Assembly (NCBI GenBank): GCA_025929895.1
Contig: JAICPI010000009.1
Location: 1 to 61,581 of the forward strand
DNA: 61,581 nt
Reading direction: 5' to 3'
Source: Thermoleophilia bacterium
GTDB taxonomy: Bacteria; Actinomycetota; Thermoleophilia; Gaiellales; Gaiellaceae
The translations under genes were made by a program, and so were the position numbers. Shown piece by piece: positions 1 to 23,202 of this stretch; position 1 is the stretch's first letter, and the number at the start of each line of letters is the position of its first letter. The notes under the pieces were generated by a model. It was not told where the DNA came from. It ran no database searches and was given only the letters and a program-made list of their open reading frames with translations.

Positions 1-1109
1 ATCCGCTTCGCCTTCGGCGAGTCGGAGTACATCGGGATGCGGATGCACGCGGAGCGGTTGCGCTGCGAGTAGACGAGGTTGACCGTCGCCTCGTAGCCGG
101 GCACGAGTCGGCGGTACGAGTTCGTCGTCGGCGCGCAGAAGGCGAGCAGTGCCGGCGCGTGCGCGAGCAGGCCGCCGATGTACGCGCGCGCGAGCTGCGA
201 GAGCCCCGCGTAGCCCGACTTGTCGGCCATCAGCGGCGTGCCCTCCTTCCAGAGGGACTGGTGCGTGTGCATGCCGGAGCCGTTGTCGCCGAAGATCGGC
301 TTCGGCATGAACGTGACGGTCTTCCCGGCCGCGCGCGCGACGTTCTTGACGACGTACTTGTAGGTCAGCACCTGGTCCGCCATGCGCGTCAGCTCGCCGT
401 AGCGGAGGTCGATCTCGCACTGGCCGGCCGACGCGACCTCGTGGTGGTGGAACTCGCACGGGATCCCCAGGCGCTCGAGCGTCAGCACCATCCGCGTGCG
501 GAGGTCGCTCAGGGTGTCGTGCGGCGCCGGCGGGAAGTAGCCCTCCTTCTCGCGGATCGTGTTCCCGAGGCCGGGCCTGCCCGAGTTCCAGTACCCCTCG
601 GCCGAGTCGACGGCGTAGTGCGACGTGTTCGGGCCGAGCTCGTACGAGACCTCGTCGAAGACGAAGAACTCGCACTCGGGTCCGAAGTACGCCGTGTCGG
701 CGACTCCGGTCTCGCGCAGGTACGCCTCTGCGCGCTTCGCGACGAGCCGCGGGTCCTTGTCGTAGGCCTCGCCGGTCAGGGGGTCCCGGATCTCGCAGAG
801 GAGCGAGAGGGTGGGCGCCTCGGCAAAGGGATCGAGGATCGCGCTCGTCGGGTCGGGCATGAGCAGCATGTCGGACTCGCTGATCCCCTGCCAGCCGCGG
901 ATCGACGAGCCGTCGAAGCCGAGTCCCTCGTCGAAGGCCGACTCGTCGAACGACGTGACCGGCAGCGTCATGTGCTGCCAGCGACCGAAGAGGTCGCAGA
1001 ACTTCAGGTCGACCATCCGGGCGCGGGTCTCGCTCGCCCACTCGAGCGCCTCGCGCGCGTCGGGCTGCGTCCCGTTCGCCAGGTAGTGCCTCGTCTCCAA
1101 CTCCGACAT
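1..1109 (-). CDS. glnA: Glutamine synthetase type I, beta-like (C-terminus cut by window edge)
   Basis: Cytosolic enzyme of ammonia assimilation: glutamate + NH3 + ATP to glutamine. About 369 residues are visible and the C-terminus lies beyond base 1. Family motifs in order: [58 protein letters not shown] (metal and ATP sites) and [12 protein letters not shown]. The insertion after the ECEFF segment ([11 protein letters not shown]...GYWNSGRP) is typical of GSI-beta, the class usually regulated by adenylylation; the adenylylated Tyr would be in the missing part. Start ATG at 1109 has a strong GAGGAGG Shine-Dalgarno. It lies downstream of the HtrA-like protease, separated by a leader with an intrinsic terminator (1136-1167), so expression is probably controlled by termination. 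A second, alpha-type synthetase is at 5251. Confidence 0.96.
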
Positions 1110-1135: not shown

Positions 1136-1167
1136 AAAAAAGCCCCAGGACCTGTTGGTCCCGAGGC
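1136..1167 (-). terminator. Intrinsic terminator inside the glnA-beta leader
   Basis: On the minus strand an 11-bp stem (GCCTCGGGACC with GGTCCTGGGGC, two G-U pairs) has an AACA loop and is followed at once by six T residues and CG. It ends only about 26 nt before the glutamine synthetase start, so it acts on that gene's own transcript. The proximal stem and the T-tract are identical to the terminator before the second synthetase (5199-5233), while the distal stem differs with compensating changes. Confidence 0.85.
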
Positions 1168-1180
1168 CTCATTGCCTCGG
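1161..1180 (-). promoter_or_regulatory. Candidate ANTAR-type antiterminator hairpin (P2) of glnA-beta
   Basis: On the minus strand CCGAGGC and GCCTCGG form a perfect 7-bp stem closing the hexaloop AATGAG. Known ANTAR RNA targets have hexanucleotide loops with A at position 1 and G at position 4; both match. The 3' strand (1161-1167) is also the 5' strand of the terminator stem, so the two structures are mutually exclusive, as in characterised ANTAR antitermination. Binding by an ANTAR protein is inferred, not shown. Confidence 0.6.
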
Positions 1181-1206
1181 CCGCGCACCTCCGGCGGCGC
1201 GCGACC
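1179..1206 (-). promoter_or_regulatory. First leader hairpin (P1) of glnA-beta
   Basis: An 11-bp stem (GGTCGCGCGCC with GGTGCGCGGCC, two wobble pairs) closes a hexaloop GCCGGA. Position 4 of the loop is G as in ANTAR targets, but position 1 is G rather than A. It sits directly before P2, as the first of the paired hairpins does in ANTAR substrates. The predicted transcript start (about 1207) lies immediately at its base. Confidence 0.45.
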
Positions 1207-1214
1207 TGGAGCGC

Positions 1215-1220
1215 ACGTTA
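1215..1220 (-). promoter_or_regulatory. Likely -10 box of glnA-beta
   Basis: TAACGT on the minus strand lies 7 nt before the base of hairpin P1, so RNA would begin at about 1207 and consist of P1, P2, terminator and ribosome binding site. No convincing -35 hexamer is seen; that region is the 3' end of the protease gene. Confidence 0.45.
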
Positions 1221-3921: not shown

Positions 3922-5164
3922 CCGGAGACGGCCGAAGATCCTGGAGCCCTTCCGGTTCCGGGACTTCGCCCTCTACTGGATCGCCCGGACCGTCTCCTTC
4001 GTCGGCGACGGCGTCATGACGGTCGCGCTCCCGTGGCAGGTCTACGAGCTGACCGACTCGCCGGCGGCGATGGGGGTCGTGGGCGCGATCCAGACGGCGT
4101 CGATCCTCGCCTTCGTGCTCATCGGCGGCGTGGCCGCCGATCGCATCGAGCGGAAGAAGGTGATCATCGTCGCGGACCTCGCCCGCGCGCTCGCGGCCGG
4201 AGCGGTCGGGTTGCTCGCGATCGACGGATCCCTCGAGCTCTGGCACCTCGGGCCGCTCGTCGTCGTCTTCGGCGTCGCGCAGGCCTTCGCCGGCCCGGCG
4301 TTCGGCTCGATCGTCCCGCAGCTCGTGCCCGACCACATGCTCCTGCAGGCCAACTCCGCGCTCCTGACCGTCAACCCGATCGCCTTTCGTTTCGTCGGGC
4401 CGGCGCTCGGGGGCGTCGTCATCGCGGCCGCGGGGACCGGGGCCGCATTCCTGCTCGATGCGGGATCCTTCGTGCTCGGCGCGGTCGCGATCGCGCTGCT
4501 CGCCGCGCGCCCGGCGGCGCGCCTCCTCGAGGAGGGCGAGCGTCGGACCGTGGTGCAGGACATCCGCGAGGGGGTCGCGTACGTGCGCGGCCGCTCCTGG
4601 CTCTGGGGCACGCTCACCTGGAACCTGTTCGTGCTGCCTCTGACCTGGGCGCCCTACGTCGTGCTCCTCCCGCACCTCGTCAAGAACGACCTCGGCGGCG
4701 ACGCGCAGAGCCTCGGCTTCATCTTCGCCGCGGGTGGGGTGAGTGCTGTCCTCACCTCGCTCGTCCTCTCGCAGACGCGAATCCCGCGCCGGCACACCAC
4801 CTTCATGTATGCGATGTTCGGCTTCGGCGTGCTCGACCTCGCGTTCTACGCGCTGACGCAGGCGCCGTGGCAGGCGATGGCCGTCGCGTTCGTCGCCGAG
4901 TGCGGGTTCATCTCGGGCGTGACGGTCTGGAGCACGCTGCTGCAGAAGGCGGTCCCCGGGGCCATGCTCGGCCGCGTCCGCAGCCTCGACTGGATGACGG
5001 CCACCGCCCTGACGCCGCTCGCGTTCGCGGGCGTCGGCCAGCTCTCCGAGACCGTCGGCGTCCGCCCCGTCATGGCCGCCTGCGGGATCGCCGCGAGCCT
5101 CCTGACGATCGCGATCTTCCTGCTCCCGGGGATGCGGGCGCTCGAGGGGAAGATCTCCCTCTGA
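3875..5164 (+). CDS. MFS transporter (EntS/MFS_3-like exporter)
   Basis: A 429-residue major facilitator with about 12 membrane segments. FRDFALYWIARTVSFVGDGV at the first helix and GGVAADRIERKKVIIVADLAR between helices 2 and 3 (the MFS signature loop) resemble the enterobactin-exporter-like MFS_3 family. The only early start is GTG 3875, which lies inside the 3' end of the permease; no ATG or GTG is available in frame until well into the first helix, so this overlap is probably real. The stop at 5162-5164 lies 86 nt before the second glutamine synthetase. The substrate is unknown. Confidence 0.88.
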   Translation: MSGTPSTTASSSGPGSRRRPKILEPFRFRDFALYWIARTVSFVGDGVMTVALPWQVYELTDSPAAMGVVGAIQTASILAFVLIGGVAADRIERKKVIIVADLARALAAGAVGLLAIDGSLELWHLGPLVVVFGVAQAFAGPAFGSIVPQLVPDHMLLQANSALLTVNPIAFRFVGPALGGVVIAAAGTGAAFLLDAGSFVLGAVAIALLAARPAARLLEEGERRTVVQDIREGVAYVRGRSWLWGTLTWNLFVLPLTWAPYVVLLPHLVKNDLGGDAQSLGFIFAAGGVSAVLTSLVLSQTRIPRRHTTFMYAMFGFGVLDLAFYALTQAPWQAMAVAFVAECGFISGVTVWSTLLQKAVPGAMLGRVRSLDWMTATALTPLAFAGVGQLSETVGVRPVMAACGIAASLLTIAIFLLPGMRALEGKISL

Positions 5165-5169
5165 GCGTG

Positions 5170-5175
5170 TAGACT
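5170..5175 (+). promoter_or_regulatory. Likely -10 box of glnA-alpha
   Basis: TAGACT lies 6 nt before base 5182, the first base of the leader hairpin. The predicted RNA would therefore start with that hairpin and run straight into the terminator at 5199-5233. Confidence 0.45.
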
Positions 5176-5181
5176 GCTCCC

Positions 5182-5207
5182 GTCCGGTAGGCGACGTTGC
5201 CTCGGGC
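5182..5207 (+). promoter_or_regulatory. Alternative leader hairpin of glnA-alpha (candidate antiterminator)
   Basis: AGGC (5189-5192) pairs with GCCT (5199-5202) around hexaloop GACGTT, and after a 2-nt bulge GTCCG pairs with CGGGC. Loop position 4 is G as in ANTAR targets; position 1 is G, not A. Its 3' strand is the 5' strand of the terminator, so the two folds exclude each other. It is weaker than the equivalent in the beta-type leader. Confidence 0.45.
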
Positions 5208-5233
5208 GCGACGATCGCGCCTGGGGCTTTTTT
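5199..5233 (+). terminator. Intrinsic terminator inside the glnA-alpha leader
   Basis: A 13-bp stem (GCCTCGGGCGCGA with TCGCGCCTGGGGC, two G-U pairs) has a CGA loop and is followed directly by TTTTTT and CG. It ends 17 nt before the ATG. The lower stem and T-tract are the same as in the leader of the other synthetase gene, while the upper stem has different but still complementary bases. Confidence 0.85.
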
Positions 5234-5250
5234 CGTTTTCAGGAGGCGAT

Positions 5251-6615
5251 ATGGCGCAGGTGGAAACGCGGAACAGGGCGACGTCGAGCGAGCAGGCCCG
5301 CAAGGAGGTCCTCGATCGCGCTGCCAAGGAGAAGGCCGAGTTCGTGCTGCTCTGGTTCACCGACCTCGAGGGGCACCTGAAGAGCTTCGCGATCACGCCC
5401 GAGGAGCTCGAGGACGCGCTCGACGACGGGATGGGCTTCGACGGCTCGTCGATCACGGGCTTCAACGCGATCGAGGAGTCGGACATGGTCGCGATTCCCG
5501 ACCCGGCGACCTTTCAGGTGATGCCGTGGAAGGAGGGCGAGACCCGCGTCGCGCGGATGATCTGCGACGTCGTCACGCCCGACGGCAAGCCCTACGAGGG
5601 CGACCCGCGCTACGTGCTGCGCCGGGCGCTCGAGCGGATGGAGTCGATGGGCTTCGACACGTTCAACATCGGGCCCGAGCTCGAGTACTTCCTGTTCAAG
5701 GACGACGCCGGCACCGAGACGCTCGACGAGGGCGGCTACTTCGCGATGACGACGATGGACGCGGCGGGCGAGCTCCGCAACGAGACGATCCGCGCGCTCA
5801 CCTCCGTCGGCATCCCGGTCGAGTACCACCACCACGAGGTCGGGCCGTCGCAGCACGAGATCGACATGCGCTTCGCGCCCGCGCTCGACATGGCCGACCA
5901 CACGATCACGTACCGCCTGATCGTCAAGGAGGTCGCGAAGAAGGCGGGGTACCACGCGACGTTCATGCCGAAGCCGATCTTCGGCGAGAACGGGTCGGGG
6001 ATGCACACGCACCAGTCGCTCTTCACCGACGGCCGGAACGCGTTCTTCGACGCCGACGACGAGTGGCACCTGAGCGACGTCGGCAAGGCGTTCATCGCCG
6101 GCCAGCTCCGCCACGCGCGCGAGATGGCTGCCGTGTTCGCGCAGTGGGTCAACTCGTACAAGCGGCTCGTGCCGGGCTACGAGGCGCCGGTGTACGTCGC
6201 GTGGTCGCGGCGGAACCGCTCCGCGCTGATCCGGATCCCGCTCTACAAGCCGGGTGCGGAGCAGGCGACGCGCGCCGAGCTGCGCTGCCCCGACCCGGCC
6301 TGCAACCCGTACCTCACCTTCGCCGCGCTTCTGCACGCGGGCCTCGAGGGGATCGAGAAGGGCTACGAGCTGCCGGAGCCGATGGAGACGAACCTCTACC
6401 ACCTGACGCCCGAGCAGCGCCGCGAGCGGGGGATCGTCTCGCTCCCGGAGACCCTCGGCGAGGCGATCGACGAGCTCTCGCAGTCGGAGCTGATGCGGAA
6501 CGCCCTCGGGCCGCACATCTTTGACCGCTACGTCGAGCTGAAGCGCAAGGAGTGGGACGAGTACCGCGTCCAGCTCACCGAGTGGGAAATGGAGAAGTAT
6601 TTGGCCGTTCTGTAA
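5251..6615 (+). CDS. glnA: Glutamine synthetase type I, alpha-like
   Basis: A 454-residue glutamine synthetase, full length for the shorter GSI-alpha class. Motifs: [78 protein letters not shown] and the C-terminal IFDRYVELKRKEWDEYRVQ typical of Thermotoga/Bacillus-type enzymes. The NLYHLTPEQR segment keeps a Tyr at the adenylylation position of beta enzymes, but the surroundings are alpha-like, so adenylylation is doubtful. ATG at 5251 has AGGAGG 5 nt upstream. Together with the truncated beta enzyme at 1-1109 the locus carries two synthetase classes under matching terminator leaders. Confidence 0.97.
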   Translation: MAQVETRNRATSSEQARKEVLDRAAKEKAEFVLLWFTDLEGHLKSFAITPEELEDALDDGMGFDGSSITGFNAIEESDMVAIPDPATFQVMPWKEGETRVARMICDVVTPDGKPYEGDPRYVLRRALERMESMGFDTFNIGPELEYFLFKDDAGTETLDEGGYFAMTTMDAAGELRNETIRALTSVGIPVEYHHHEVGPSQHEIDMRFAPALDMADHTITYRLIVKEVAKKAGYHATFMPKPIFGENGSGMHTHQSLFTDGRNAFFDADDEWHLSDVGKAFIAGQLRHAREMAAVFAQWVNSYKRLVPGYEAPVYVAWSRRNRSALIRIPLYKPGAEQATRAELRCPDPACNPYLTFAALLHAGLEGIEKGYELPEPMETNLYHLTPEQRRERGIVSLPETLGEAIDELSQSELMRNALGPHIFDRYVELKRKEWDEYRVQLTEWEMEKYLAVL

Positions 6616-8180: not shown

Positions 8181-9593
8181 GTGGATCAGAGCGCAAGGCA
8201 CCTCGGCCTCCTGACGGAGACGATCGCGGCGGTCAACTCGTCGCTCGACCTCGAGGAGGTGCTCGGGCTGATCGCCCGGCGGGTCGCGGCAGCGCTCGAG
8301 GCGGACGCCTGCTTCGTCTACCTCTACGACGAGCGCTCGGACGAGCTCGTCCTGCGGGCGACGCACGGGACGCACGTCGAGGAGCTCACCCGAACGCCGC
8401 GAATGAACCCAGGGGAGGGGATCACGGGCACCGCCGCCGCCGAGCGCGCGCCGATCATGATCGCGTCGCAGGCGCACCTCGACCCGCGCTTCCTCTCGTT
8501 CCCGAACCTGCCGGAGGACCAGTACGAGTCGATCCTGGCCGTGCCGATCCTCGCGCGCACGGGCAAGCTCGACGGCGCGCTGAACGTGCGCACGATCGCG
8601 CCGCGGACGTTCACGCAGGGTGAGATCGAGCTCCTCCTCGCGATCGCGACGCAGGTCGCGCACTCGATCGAGCATGCGCAGCTCTACGAGCAGGCACAGC
8701 GCCGCGTCCACGAGCTCGAGGCGCTCGCGAGGATCTCCGAGGCGGTGTCCGAGTCGCTCTACCTCGAGGAATCGCTCGAGGCGATCGTCAAGACGACGAT
8801 CGGCGCCGTCGGCGCCACCGGCGCCGCCCTCGTGCTCGAGGACGGGAAGATCGCCTGGCCCGAGGGCCGCGCGGGTGCCTACGCGGTGCGGCTGCCGCTC
8901 CGTTGGAAGCGCCGCCAGATCGGCGAGCTCGTCTGCGACCGCGACACGCCGTTCACCGACGGCGACCAGGCGCTGCTCTCGTCGATCGCGAGCCACGCGG
9001 CCGTCGCGCTCGAGCACGGGCGTGCGGTCCTGCGCGGCGTGCTCGCCCAGGAGATCCACCATCGCGTCAAGAACAACCTCCAGACGGTCGCGTCGCTGCT
9101 GCGCCTCCAGGCGCGCGCCGAGCACCTCGATCCGCGGAAGGCCCTCGACGACTCGGTCAACCGCGTGCTCGCGATCGCGGCGGTGCACGAGGTGTTGATG
9201 GAGCGTCGCGAGGAGGAGGTCGAGCTCGCCGACCTGCTCGACCGGCTGCGCGCGATGCTCGTCCAGGGCCTCGCGTCGGGGAAGGAGGTCGAGTCCGCGC
9301 TCGAGCCGGTGCAGCTCGCGGGGGACCGCGCGACGGCGCTCGCGCTCGTGTTCAGCGAGCTGTTCCAGAACGCGCTCGAGCACGGGGGGACGGCGGTGCG
9401 CGTCGAGCTGGCCCGCCGCGACGGCGACGTCGTGCTGGCGATCTCGGACGACGGCTCCGGGATCGACGCCGGCGCACCGGAGGCCGGCACGGGCCTCTCG
9501 ATCGTCCGCGCGCTCGTCCGCGACGAGCTCGGCGGCTCGCTCGCGCTCGACTCGGCCGACGGCCTGCGGGCGGAGGTCGTGTTCCCGGCTTAG
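8181..9593 (+). CDS. pdtaS: GAF-GAF-HisKA_2 sensor histidine kinase (PdtaS-like)
   Basis: A 470-residue cytosolic kinase without membrane segments. GAF-like domains cover about residues 20-165 and 180-280. The HisKA_2 phosphoacceptor motif EIHHRVKNNLQT is at about 291-302 (His 293/294), followed by an HATPase domain with FSELFQNALEHG (N box) and ISDDGSGID (G1) plus GTGLSIVRALV. This layout is that of the PdtaS/EutW group, whose partner is a receiver-ANTAR regulator; exactly such a regulator lies at 9971-10540. The ligand sensed by the GAF domains is unknown. Start GTG 8181 looks leaderless. The stop overlaps the convergent glyoxalase stop by a few bases. Confidence 0.88.
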   Translation: MDQSARHLGLLTETIAAVNSSLDLEEVLGLIARRVAAALEADACFVYLYDERSDELVLRATHGTHVEELTRTPRMNPGEGITGTAAAERAPIMIASQAHLDPRFLSFPNLPEDQYESILAVPILARTGKLDGALNVRTIAPRTFTQGEIELLLAIATQVAHSIEHAQLYEQAQRRVHELEALARISEAVSESLYLEESLEAIVKTTIGAVGATGAALVLEDGKIAWPEGRAGAYAVRLPLRWKRRQIGELVCDRDTPFTDGDQALLSSIASHAAVALEHGRAVLRGVLAQEIHHRVKNNLQTVASLLRLQARAEHLDPRKALDDSVNRVLAIAAVHEVLMERREEEVELADLLDRLRAMLVQGLASGKEVESALEPVQLAGDRATALALVFSELFQNALEHGGTAVRVELARRDGDVVLAISDDGSGIDAGAPEAGTGLSIVRALVRDELGGSLALDSADGLRAEVVFPA

Positions 9594-9963: not shown

Positions 9964-9970
9964 CGTGCCC

Positions 9971-10540
9971 GTGCGGATCCTGATCGCCGAGGACGAGACG
10001 ATCATCCGGCTCGACCTGCGCGACCTGCTCGAGCGCTCGGGCTTCGAGGTCTGCGCGGAGGCGAAGGACGGCGAGGAGGCCGTCGAGCTCGCGCGCAGCG
10101 AGCGGCCCGACCTCGCGATCCTCGACGTCAAGATGCCGCGGCTCGACGGGATCGAGGCGGCGCGGCGGATGCTCGAGGAGCGCCCGCTGCCGATCGTGAT
10201 GCTGACGGCGTACGGCCAGGGAGAGCTCGTCGCGCGCGCCGTCGAGGCCGGCGTCTTCGGCTACCTCGTCAAGCCCTTCCGCGAGCAGGACCTGCTGCCC
10301 GCGATCGAGACGGCGCGCGCGCGGCACGAGGAGCTGAGCGCGCTCCGCGACGAGGCGGAGTCGCTGGCCGAGGCGCTCGCAGCGCGCAAGGCGATCGAGC
10401 GCGCGAAGGGGCTGCTGATGGAGAAGGAGGGGCTGAGCGAGCCCGACGCGTTCGCGCGGCTGCGCAAGGCGAGCCAGCTCTCGGGCCGGCCGCTCAAGGT
10501 CGTCGCCGAGGCGCTGATCGCGACGTTCGCGAAGGAGTAG
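9971..10540 (+). CDS. pdtaR: Response regulator with ANTAR RNA-binding output domain (PdtaR-like)
   Basis: A 189-residue regulator. The receiver domain (MRILIAEDETIIR...) has the phospho-accepting Asp at about 52 in LAILDVKMP and the conserved Lys at about 101 in YLVKPF. A coiled-coil linker leads to an ANTAR domain at about 125-185 (AIERAKGLLMEKEGLSEPDAFARLRKAS), which in this family binds paired hexaloop RNA hairpins and prevents transcription termination. GTG 9971 is chosen over GTG 9965 because TACACT ends 7 nt upstream of it and translation opens directly with the receiver strand. The likely partner is the HisKA_2 kinase at 8181. The leaders before both glutamine synthetase genes in this window are plausible targets. 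Confidence 0.92.
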   Translation: MRILIAEDETIIRLDLRDLLERSGFEVCAEAKDGEEAVELARSERPDLAILDVKMPRLDGIEAARRMLEERPLPIVMLTAYGQGELVARAVEAGVFGYLVKPFREQDLLPAIETARARHEELSALRDEAESLAEALAARKAIERAKGLLMEKEGLSEPDAFARLRKASQLSGRPLKVVAEALIATFAKE

Positions 10541-22909: not shown

Positions 22910-23202
22910 ACGGCGACGGCGAGCGGCTCGTCGAGCTGGTCGACGAGCTGCGCAAGCGAAACGCCCAGCTCGAGCTCGCGCTGTCCTCGCGGATCGTGAT
23001 CGAGCAGGCGAAGGGGATCCTGGCCGAGCGCTACCGGCTCGACCTCGACTCCGCGTTCGCCGTGCTCCGCGGCGCTGCGCGCCGGCACCGGCTGCGCATC
23101 CACGTGCTCGCCGAGGCGGTCGTCACATCGCCGCGGACGCCGAGCGCGATCGAGCTCGAGCTCGTCCAGGGACGCGCGCCGAGCCTCTCCGAGCGCGCCT
23201 AG
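22906..23202 (+). CDS. Small ANTAR-domain protein
   Basis: A 98-residue protein consisting of an N-terminal coiled coil (RLVELVDELRKRNAQLELALSS) and an ANTAR domain (RIVIEQAKGILAERYRLDLDSAFAVLRGAARRH) with no receiver or GAF domain. ANTAR domains bind paired hexaloop RNA hairpins and cause antitermination; the coiled coil would dimerise it. Without a sensor domain it must be regulated by a partner, possibly the STAS protein with which it overlaps (GTGA), which is inference. The stop overlaps the convergent secreted-protein gene by 4 nt. Confidence 0.85.
   Translation: MNGDGERLVELVDELRKRNAQLELALSSRIVIEQAKGILAERYRLDLDSAFAVLRGAARRHRLRIHVLAEAVVTSPRTPSAIELELVQGRAPSLSERA

Follow-up and report, generated by a model that had tools for sequence, protein, structure and literature searches.

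Two glutamine synthetase genes in the window (the whole stretch of 61,581 nucleotides analysed here) are preceded by conserved leaders, probably of the ANTAR type, and it is probable that both belong to a nitrogen-assimilation regulon in which binding of a phosphorylated receiver-ANTAR protein to the hairpin P2 would keep a default terminator from forming; the gene for this protein is likely the one at 9965-10540. In the proposed mechanism, the intrinsic terminator would form by default and transcription would stop ahead of the gene; the hairpin P1 would recruit the ANTAR protein first, and the phosphorylated protein would then bind the hexaloop hairpin P2 and keep the terminator from forming, activating rather than repressing the gene, with a kinase that would respond to nitrogen status. 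In this family of uncultured soil actinobacteria (Gaiellaceae), one leader type stands before glnA-1, glnII and PII/amt as well as some receiver genes, which constitute the predicted regulon, while glnA-2 would carry a P2-only version. If true, central nitrogen-assimilation genes of Gaiellales, a poorly studied soil lineage, are under kinase-to-RNA control.

Control of glnA by an ANTAR protein is known from Clostridium, where the protein is NitR. The principle is known, since ANTAR leaders ahead of genes for glutamine synthetase, PII and amt have been in print since 2012: the available portion of PMC3369931 defines a motif of two hairpins carrying A1 and G4 and describes matches ahead of genes for P-II, ammonium transporter and glutamine synthase, and that of PMC3369936 mentions glutamine synthetase and Actinobacteria. 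What is new is the lineage, the P1 loops opening with G instead of A, and the single-hexaloop leader on glnA-2. The main ANTAR survey of the phylum (PMC8164766), in its accessible part, saw few terminator-overlapping RNAs, with targets mainly in transport, metabolism and transcription, whereas the leaders described here overlap terminators and precede nitrogen genes; both glutamine synthetase and the string Thermoleophil- were absent from the accessible main text of that survey. A literature search by title, with most subscription papers outside its reach, returned none that pointed to leaders with one hexaloop or to nitrogen leaders in Gaiella.

Anatomy and conservation of the glnA-1 leader

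The first-pass annotation had described a TAACGT box, two hexaloop hairpins and a T6 terminator before glnA on the minus strand, all of which were borne out by the sequence and by folding. The downstream gene (glnA-1, 1-1109, minus strand, truncated by the window edge) is a glutamine synthetase as annotated, with its assignment corrected from beta-type to type I GlnA (TIGR00653 above cut-off). Ahead of it on the same strand, a -10-like TAACGT read from the sequence at 1215-1220 is followed by P1 (1179-1206), which is identified by reading, folding and covariation in relatives. From 1206 to 1179, P1 reads GGTCGCGCGCC[GCCGGA]GGTGCGCGGCC, with the hexaloop at 1195-1190 (G1, G4) and a stem that can extend to 11 bp. 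P2 (1161-1180, minus strand), identified by reading and by folding of the cut RNA, has the core GAGGC[AATGAG]GCCTC at 1178-1163 and can be extended to CCGAGGC/GCCTCGG at 1180-1161, the CC at 1180-1179 being contested between P1 and the extended P2. Its hexaloop AATGAG (1173-1168) carries the A1 and G4 previously claimed for it, just as the P1 loop carries the claimed G4.

The intrinsic terminator (1136-1167, minus strand; reading and folding) consists of the stem GCCTCGGGACC-AACA-GGTCCTGGGGC at 1167-1142 and T6 at 1141-1136. The 11-bp stem had been called perfect; its length and the T6 stand, and two G-U pairs make it not wholly Watson-Crick. Downstream of the T6 lie AGGAGG at 1120-1115 and the ATG at 1109. 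As had been annotated, P2 and the terminator share a strand, 3' in the former and 5' in the latter, so that only one of the two can form. The full leader folds with a minimum free energy of -57.7 kcal/mol (z -5.1; 0/200 shuffles as good) and with the terminator formed; the leader cut before the terminator 3' arm forms P1 and P2 (z -2.7; 4/200 shuffles as good).

When the glnA-1 protein was searched against the family, 24 of 61 genomes yielded 25 matches, and 22 of these matches were kept as close orthologues with readable upstream DNA; two matches with 53% identity and, by eye, without a leader (L026 and L028) and one with masked upstream DNA (L027) were excluded. The layout of P1, P2 and terminator was present in all 22 orthologous leaders, and all 22 also passed a pattern that restricted the loop to A or G, A, T or C, and G, a choice made after the leaders had been inspected. 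Because the layout recurs in every one of them, the glnA-1 leader is confirmed as a real and conserved feature beyond chance. A TANNNT element was located 34-47 nt before P2 in 19/22 leaders (0.9 expected). No TANNNT was found at the usual distance in L023, L024 and L025, where a further terminator-like hairpin, with its own T run, was seen by eye between the leader terminator and the gene.

The stem sequences of P1 vary among the 22 leaders, yet pairing is kept: 93.9% of cells pair in the ungapped P1+P2 pieces, for which the P1 register was chosen by eye and which are therefore biased towards structure, versus only 33-47% in slid versions of the same pieces. In P1, 35 cells were altered on both sides, compared with 12.5 in shuffles, and the covariation score of 0.348 (0.105 in shuffles) was reached by 0/500 shuffles; a total of five doubly changed pairs was unremarkable (123/500 shuffles). 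Covariation is uninformative on P2 because its stems scarcely vary. The MAFFT alignment (labelled A1, not to be confused with the loop base) placed P1 wrongly in several rows, and the covariance model R1 was nonetheless built from it.

In all 22 leaders the terminator was the best fold and took 4-5 of the 5 P2 3' bases, extending the annotated strand overlap to every orthologue. Forcing P2 cost 3.6-13.7 kcal/mol (with an outer C-C pair included in three rows). The terminator is thus the computed default, with the leader off, and something must therefore pay for P2.

With the chosen P1 register, two hexaloop hairpins were present in 22/22 leaders (L012 and L022 with just 3 bp adjoining the P1 loop), with G4 in both loops throughout and with G at position 1 of the P1 loop in 22/22 and A in 0/22. 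Position 1 of the P2 loop was A in 16/22 (15 by the automatic picker) and G in 6/22. The first-pass annotation largely passed the test that it had set itself on orthologous glnA leaders, which named the P2 hairpin and loop bases A1 and G4: P2 and G4 held in every leader, while A1, which in both loops defines described ANTAR targets, was confined to those 16 P2 loops. According to the available text of PMC3369931 and PMC3369936, the dual-hexaloop leaders of EutV, NasR and AmiR resemble those described here in their two hexaloop hairpins, conserved G4 and a P2 overlapping the intrinsic terminator, and differ in that described targets have A1 whereas the P1 loops here start with G, a point against the proposed reading. 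The linker between the hairpins is also often shorter, at 0-11 nt (mostly 1-7), compared with the 5-12 nt given for E. faecalis eut. The EutV structure, as presented in the accessible part of PMC8934654, has no specific contact to A1.

The predicted nitrogen-assimilation regulon and its taxonomic spread

A covariance-model search had been suggested as a check. In the genome to which the window belongs, the model (E<0.01) found two leaders, both in the window, at 1134-1208 (E 1.7e-15) and 5154-5235 (E 4.5e-6); the first-pass annotation had covered the glnA-1 leader alone and had missed the second leader (5170-5233) and the wider regulon. Weaker own-genome hits (E 0.17 and worse) were dropped, with no match to reference nitrogen proteins in the stretches tested. 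Across the family, 103 hits were obtained at E 0.01 in 53 of 61 genomes, the remaining 8 giving none. Nitrogen or receiver genes lay downstream of 91/103 hits: glnA-1 (22), glnA-2 (37), glnII-type (8), PII or ammonium transporter (19) and receiver (5), with names other than those of the glutamine synthetases and receiver-ANTAR assigned by mutual similarity and sequence reading. For the other 12 hits, either the contig ended too soon or no nitrogen or receiver gene could be assigned. A PII or amt gene followed glnA-1 within the fetched flank in 9/21 loci, and in a contiguous locus of the same genus (L005) glnA-1, PII and amt are in direct succession.

With the loop left free, P2 was found in 96/103 hits and G4 in 92 of those 96, and a stricter rule gave P2 G4 in 75/78 versus 34% in shuffled hexaloops; unconstrained picks gave P1 G4 in 51/78 hits overall and in 14/16 for glnA-1. 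These all-hit counts lean towards the trained pattern, since the model was built from such leaders.

The position of the promoter-like element bears on whether the hairpins are simply 3' terminators of the upstream genes, with glnA not regulated by them. The glnA-1 terminator does lie about 75 bases past the stop codon of an upstream protease gene (1241), and that of glnA-2 lies 35 bases past the stop codon of an upstream MFS gene (5164). Against this, a TANNNT element stands ahead of the hairpins at fixed distances: 17-24 nt before P2 in 36/37 glnA-2 leaders (1.5 expected; 0/37 at 34-47 nt) and 34-47 nt in 41/48 glnA-1, glnII and PII/amt leaders (2.1 expected; 0/48 at 17-24 nt). The hexaloops and the P2/terminator overlap are also conserved, and leaders occupy the same position before different nitrogen genes, which makes a plain-terminator origin very unlikely. 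A riboswitch binding a metabolite such as glutamine and running the terminator without a protein is still harder to credit and would be extremely improbable; glnA, PII and amt are, on general knowledge, plausible targets of nitrogen-metabolite sensing, whereas the hairpins are short, variable in sequence and without a conserved junction, the glnA-2 leader has one hairpin, and an Rfam search of the window yielded nothing usable, as no family reached its cut-off and relaxed thresholds brought up nothing but matches far short of it. An ANTAR-type antitermination leader is the preferred reading.

In a class sample of 249 genomes (E 0.001), 55 had a hit, comprising 53 of this family and 2 of another family in the same order, and in a phylum sample of 296 genomes (E 0.0001) there were 4 with a hit, of which 3 were of this family and one was judged chance; both searches used stricter filters and a family-trained model, so that more distant leaders could be missed. 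Inspected by eye, the chance hit (G453; E 2.9e-5), the sole one outside the order, resembles a symmetric terminator hairpin that lacks a P2 hexaloop, and it faces a ferredoxin-like frame on the opposite strand. Among Gaiellales-like records (L151-L197, leaving out L168 for too little upstream DNA), the model gave a hit (E<0.01) directly upstream of glnA-2 in 35 of 46 readable cases and not in the other 11, and L198-L230, labelled mostly Solirubrobacterales, gave no hit at E<0.01. The leader is therefore not universal, and even close relatives can be without it.

Several further arrangements were observed. A tandem pair of complete leader units precedes an ammonium transporter gene in two genomes (L067/L065 at G058:C78 and L095 at G037:C24), and a similar tandem pair occurs at G233:C141. 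A strong hit (L072, G008:C80:5580-5654; E 6.5e-10) lies before a gene that by eye resembles a HAD-type phosphatase, with no obvious nitrogen gene. Additionally, contig C82 of the window's own genome starts within a glnA-1 and continues into PII and amt; its identity to the window glnA-1 is 92% over 287 bases of DNA, and because of the 8% difference it is not claimed as the continuation of that gene.

The single-hexaloop leader of glnA-2

The second glutamine synthetase, glnA-2 (5251-6615, plus strand), was assigned to type I by sequence and profile match. Its leader on the same strand comprises a -10-like TAGACT (5170-5175; from reading and from the position of TANNNT in relatives), a single hexaloop hairpin AGGC[GACGTT]GCCT (5189-5202; reading and covariance model) and a terminator (5199-5233; reading and folding) with its stem at 5199-5227 and T6 at 5228-5233. 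The full leader folds to the terminator (z -3.5; 2/200 shuffles as good). In the cut RNA, with P2 in isolation, an extra G-U pair was predicted inside the P2 loop, which counts against a free hexaloop there.

The 37 glnA-2 leaders had no P1 and thus lacked the two-hairpin arrangement. A hexaloop hairpin of at least 5 bp ahead of P2 was found in 4/37 of them (5.6 expected), compared with 35/48 of the other leaders (7.5 expected), and in 36/37 the promoter-like element is too near P2 to leave room for P1. If TANNNT is the -10 box, the glnA-2 RNA would start a few bases before P2, without P1. In this the class differs from the leaders of EutV, NasR and AmiR as far as PMC3369931 and PMC3369936 were available. 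The accessible part of PMC8934654 identifies one hexaloop as the minimal binding unit of EutV and proposes that the dimer must contact each of two hexaloops to prevent termination, whereas glnA-2 leaders have one. The split between dual- and single-hexaloop leaders is thus a natural experiment on whether both hexaloops are needed for antitermination. A glnA-2 leader in a neighbouring family of the order (G219) has a P1-like hairpin by eye, and in L184 glnA-2 stands beside a divergent glnA-1 leader, the model finding no leader of its own.

The receiver-ANTAR protein as the likely reader

A receiver-ANTAR response regulator (9965-10540, plus strand; PF00072 and PF03861 above cut-off) is the predicted reader of the leaders, and a GAF-HisKA_2 histidine kinase recognised by domain search (8181-9593), upstream on the same strand, is its predicted partner. 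The closest PDB entry to the regulator was Rv1626 (1s8n, E 7.8e-55), followed by EutV. Rv1626 is PdtaR of the PdtaS-PdtaR system, and its kinase is of the HisKA_2 type. In 23/23 same-contig cases, one of them a partial match (G009), the receiver-ANTAR gene was on the same strand and 3.2-8.1 kb downstream of the glnA-2 leader, with the gene on a different contig or not listed for the other 14/37 leaders. The gene faces away from the leader of glnA-1 in 11/11 and from that of glnII in 4/4 same-contig cases. In G219 the leader is followed by glnA-2, then the kinase gene and then the receiver-ANTAR gene as direct neighbours, an inverted repeat lying between the first two of these genes; in G181 the genes for kinase and receiver-ANTAR protein come approximately 4-5 kb further on. 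Co-occurrence of leader and receiver-ANTAR gene is uninformative because the gene is present in 60/61 family genomes (loose cut-off).

The genome has three ANTAR domains, and the leaders might instead be read by one of the other two proteins. One is encoded at 22963-23124 of the window (plus strand) and is immediately preceded, in a different reading frame, by a stretch that by eye looks STAS-like (22.5-22.9 kb); the third lies on contig C30. Conserved synteny with the leaders was found for the receiver-ANTAR gene, the sole ANTAR gene examined for synteny, and this gene has receiver paralogues within leader-led units; another reader is thus unlikely, and the protein at 9965-10540 is preferred. 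The first-pass annotation had proposed that a phosphorylated ANTAR protein switches glutamine synthetase on. Its ANTAR component is supported at the sequence level by the conserved G4 hexaloops, the exclusion between P2 and terminator, the nitrogen regulon and the syntenic receiver-ANTAR and HisKA_2 kinase genes, so that the proposal is supported in part; binding, its dependence on phosphorylation and an activating effect are predicted.

Motif recovery from 30 fetched receiver-ANTAR loci gave 20 proteins for residue comparison. The EutV residues R142, K149, E160 and Y164, which touch loop G4 according to the available part of PMC8934654, and R168 correspond to R, K, E, F and R in 20/20, so that the G4-contacting residues are kept except for Tyr to Phe at 164. 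The same source reports the Met172 plug of EutV as essential for RNA binding; this position is Gln in 20/20 of the proteins here, which speaks against the proposed reading.

Receivers by eye without an ANTAR domain stand directly behind the leader in L078 (G010:C64) and L101 (G055:C160), with 65% and 69% identity to the receiver domain of the window protein, and receivers 66-70% identical follow amt in G037 and G058. Tentatively, and with somewhat less than even confidence, we suggest that one ANTAR protein would read two switch grades in one cell, dual-hexaloop (glnA-1, glnII, PII/amt) and single-hexaloop (glnA-2). One hexaloop would then suffice for antitermination, and the absence of P1 would give the second enzyme its own threshold. 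The ANTAR domain of the family may have co-adapted, as Gln in place of the Met172 plug and the G1 loops would suggest, and the ANTAR-less receiver copies in the regulon might damp it by serving as a phosphate sink.

In all, receiver proteins 65-70% identical to the regulator's receiver and lying directly behind a leader or a leader-amt unit are found in L078, L101, L262 and L263. In G052, a full receiver-ANTAR paralogue (59%) follows amt.
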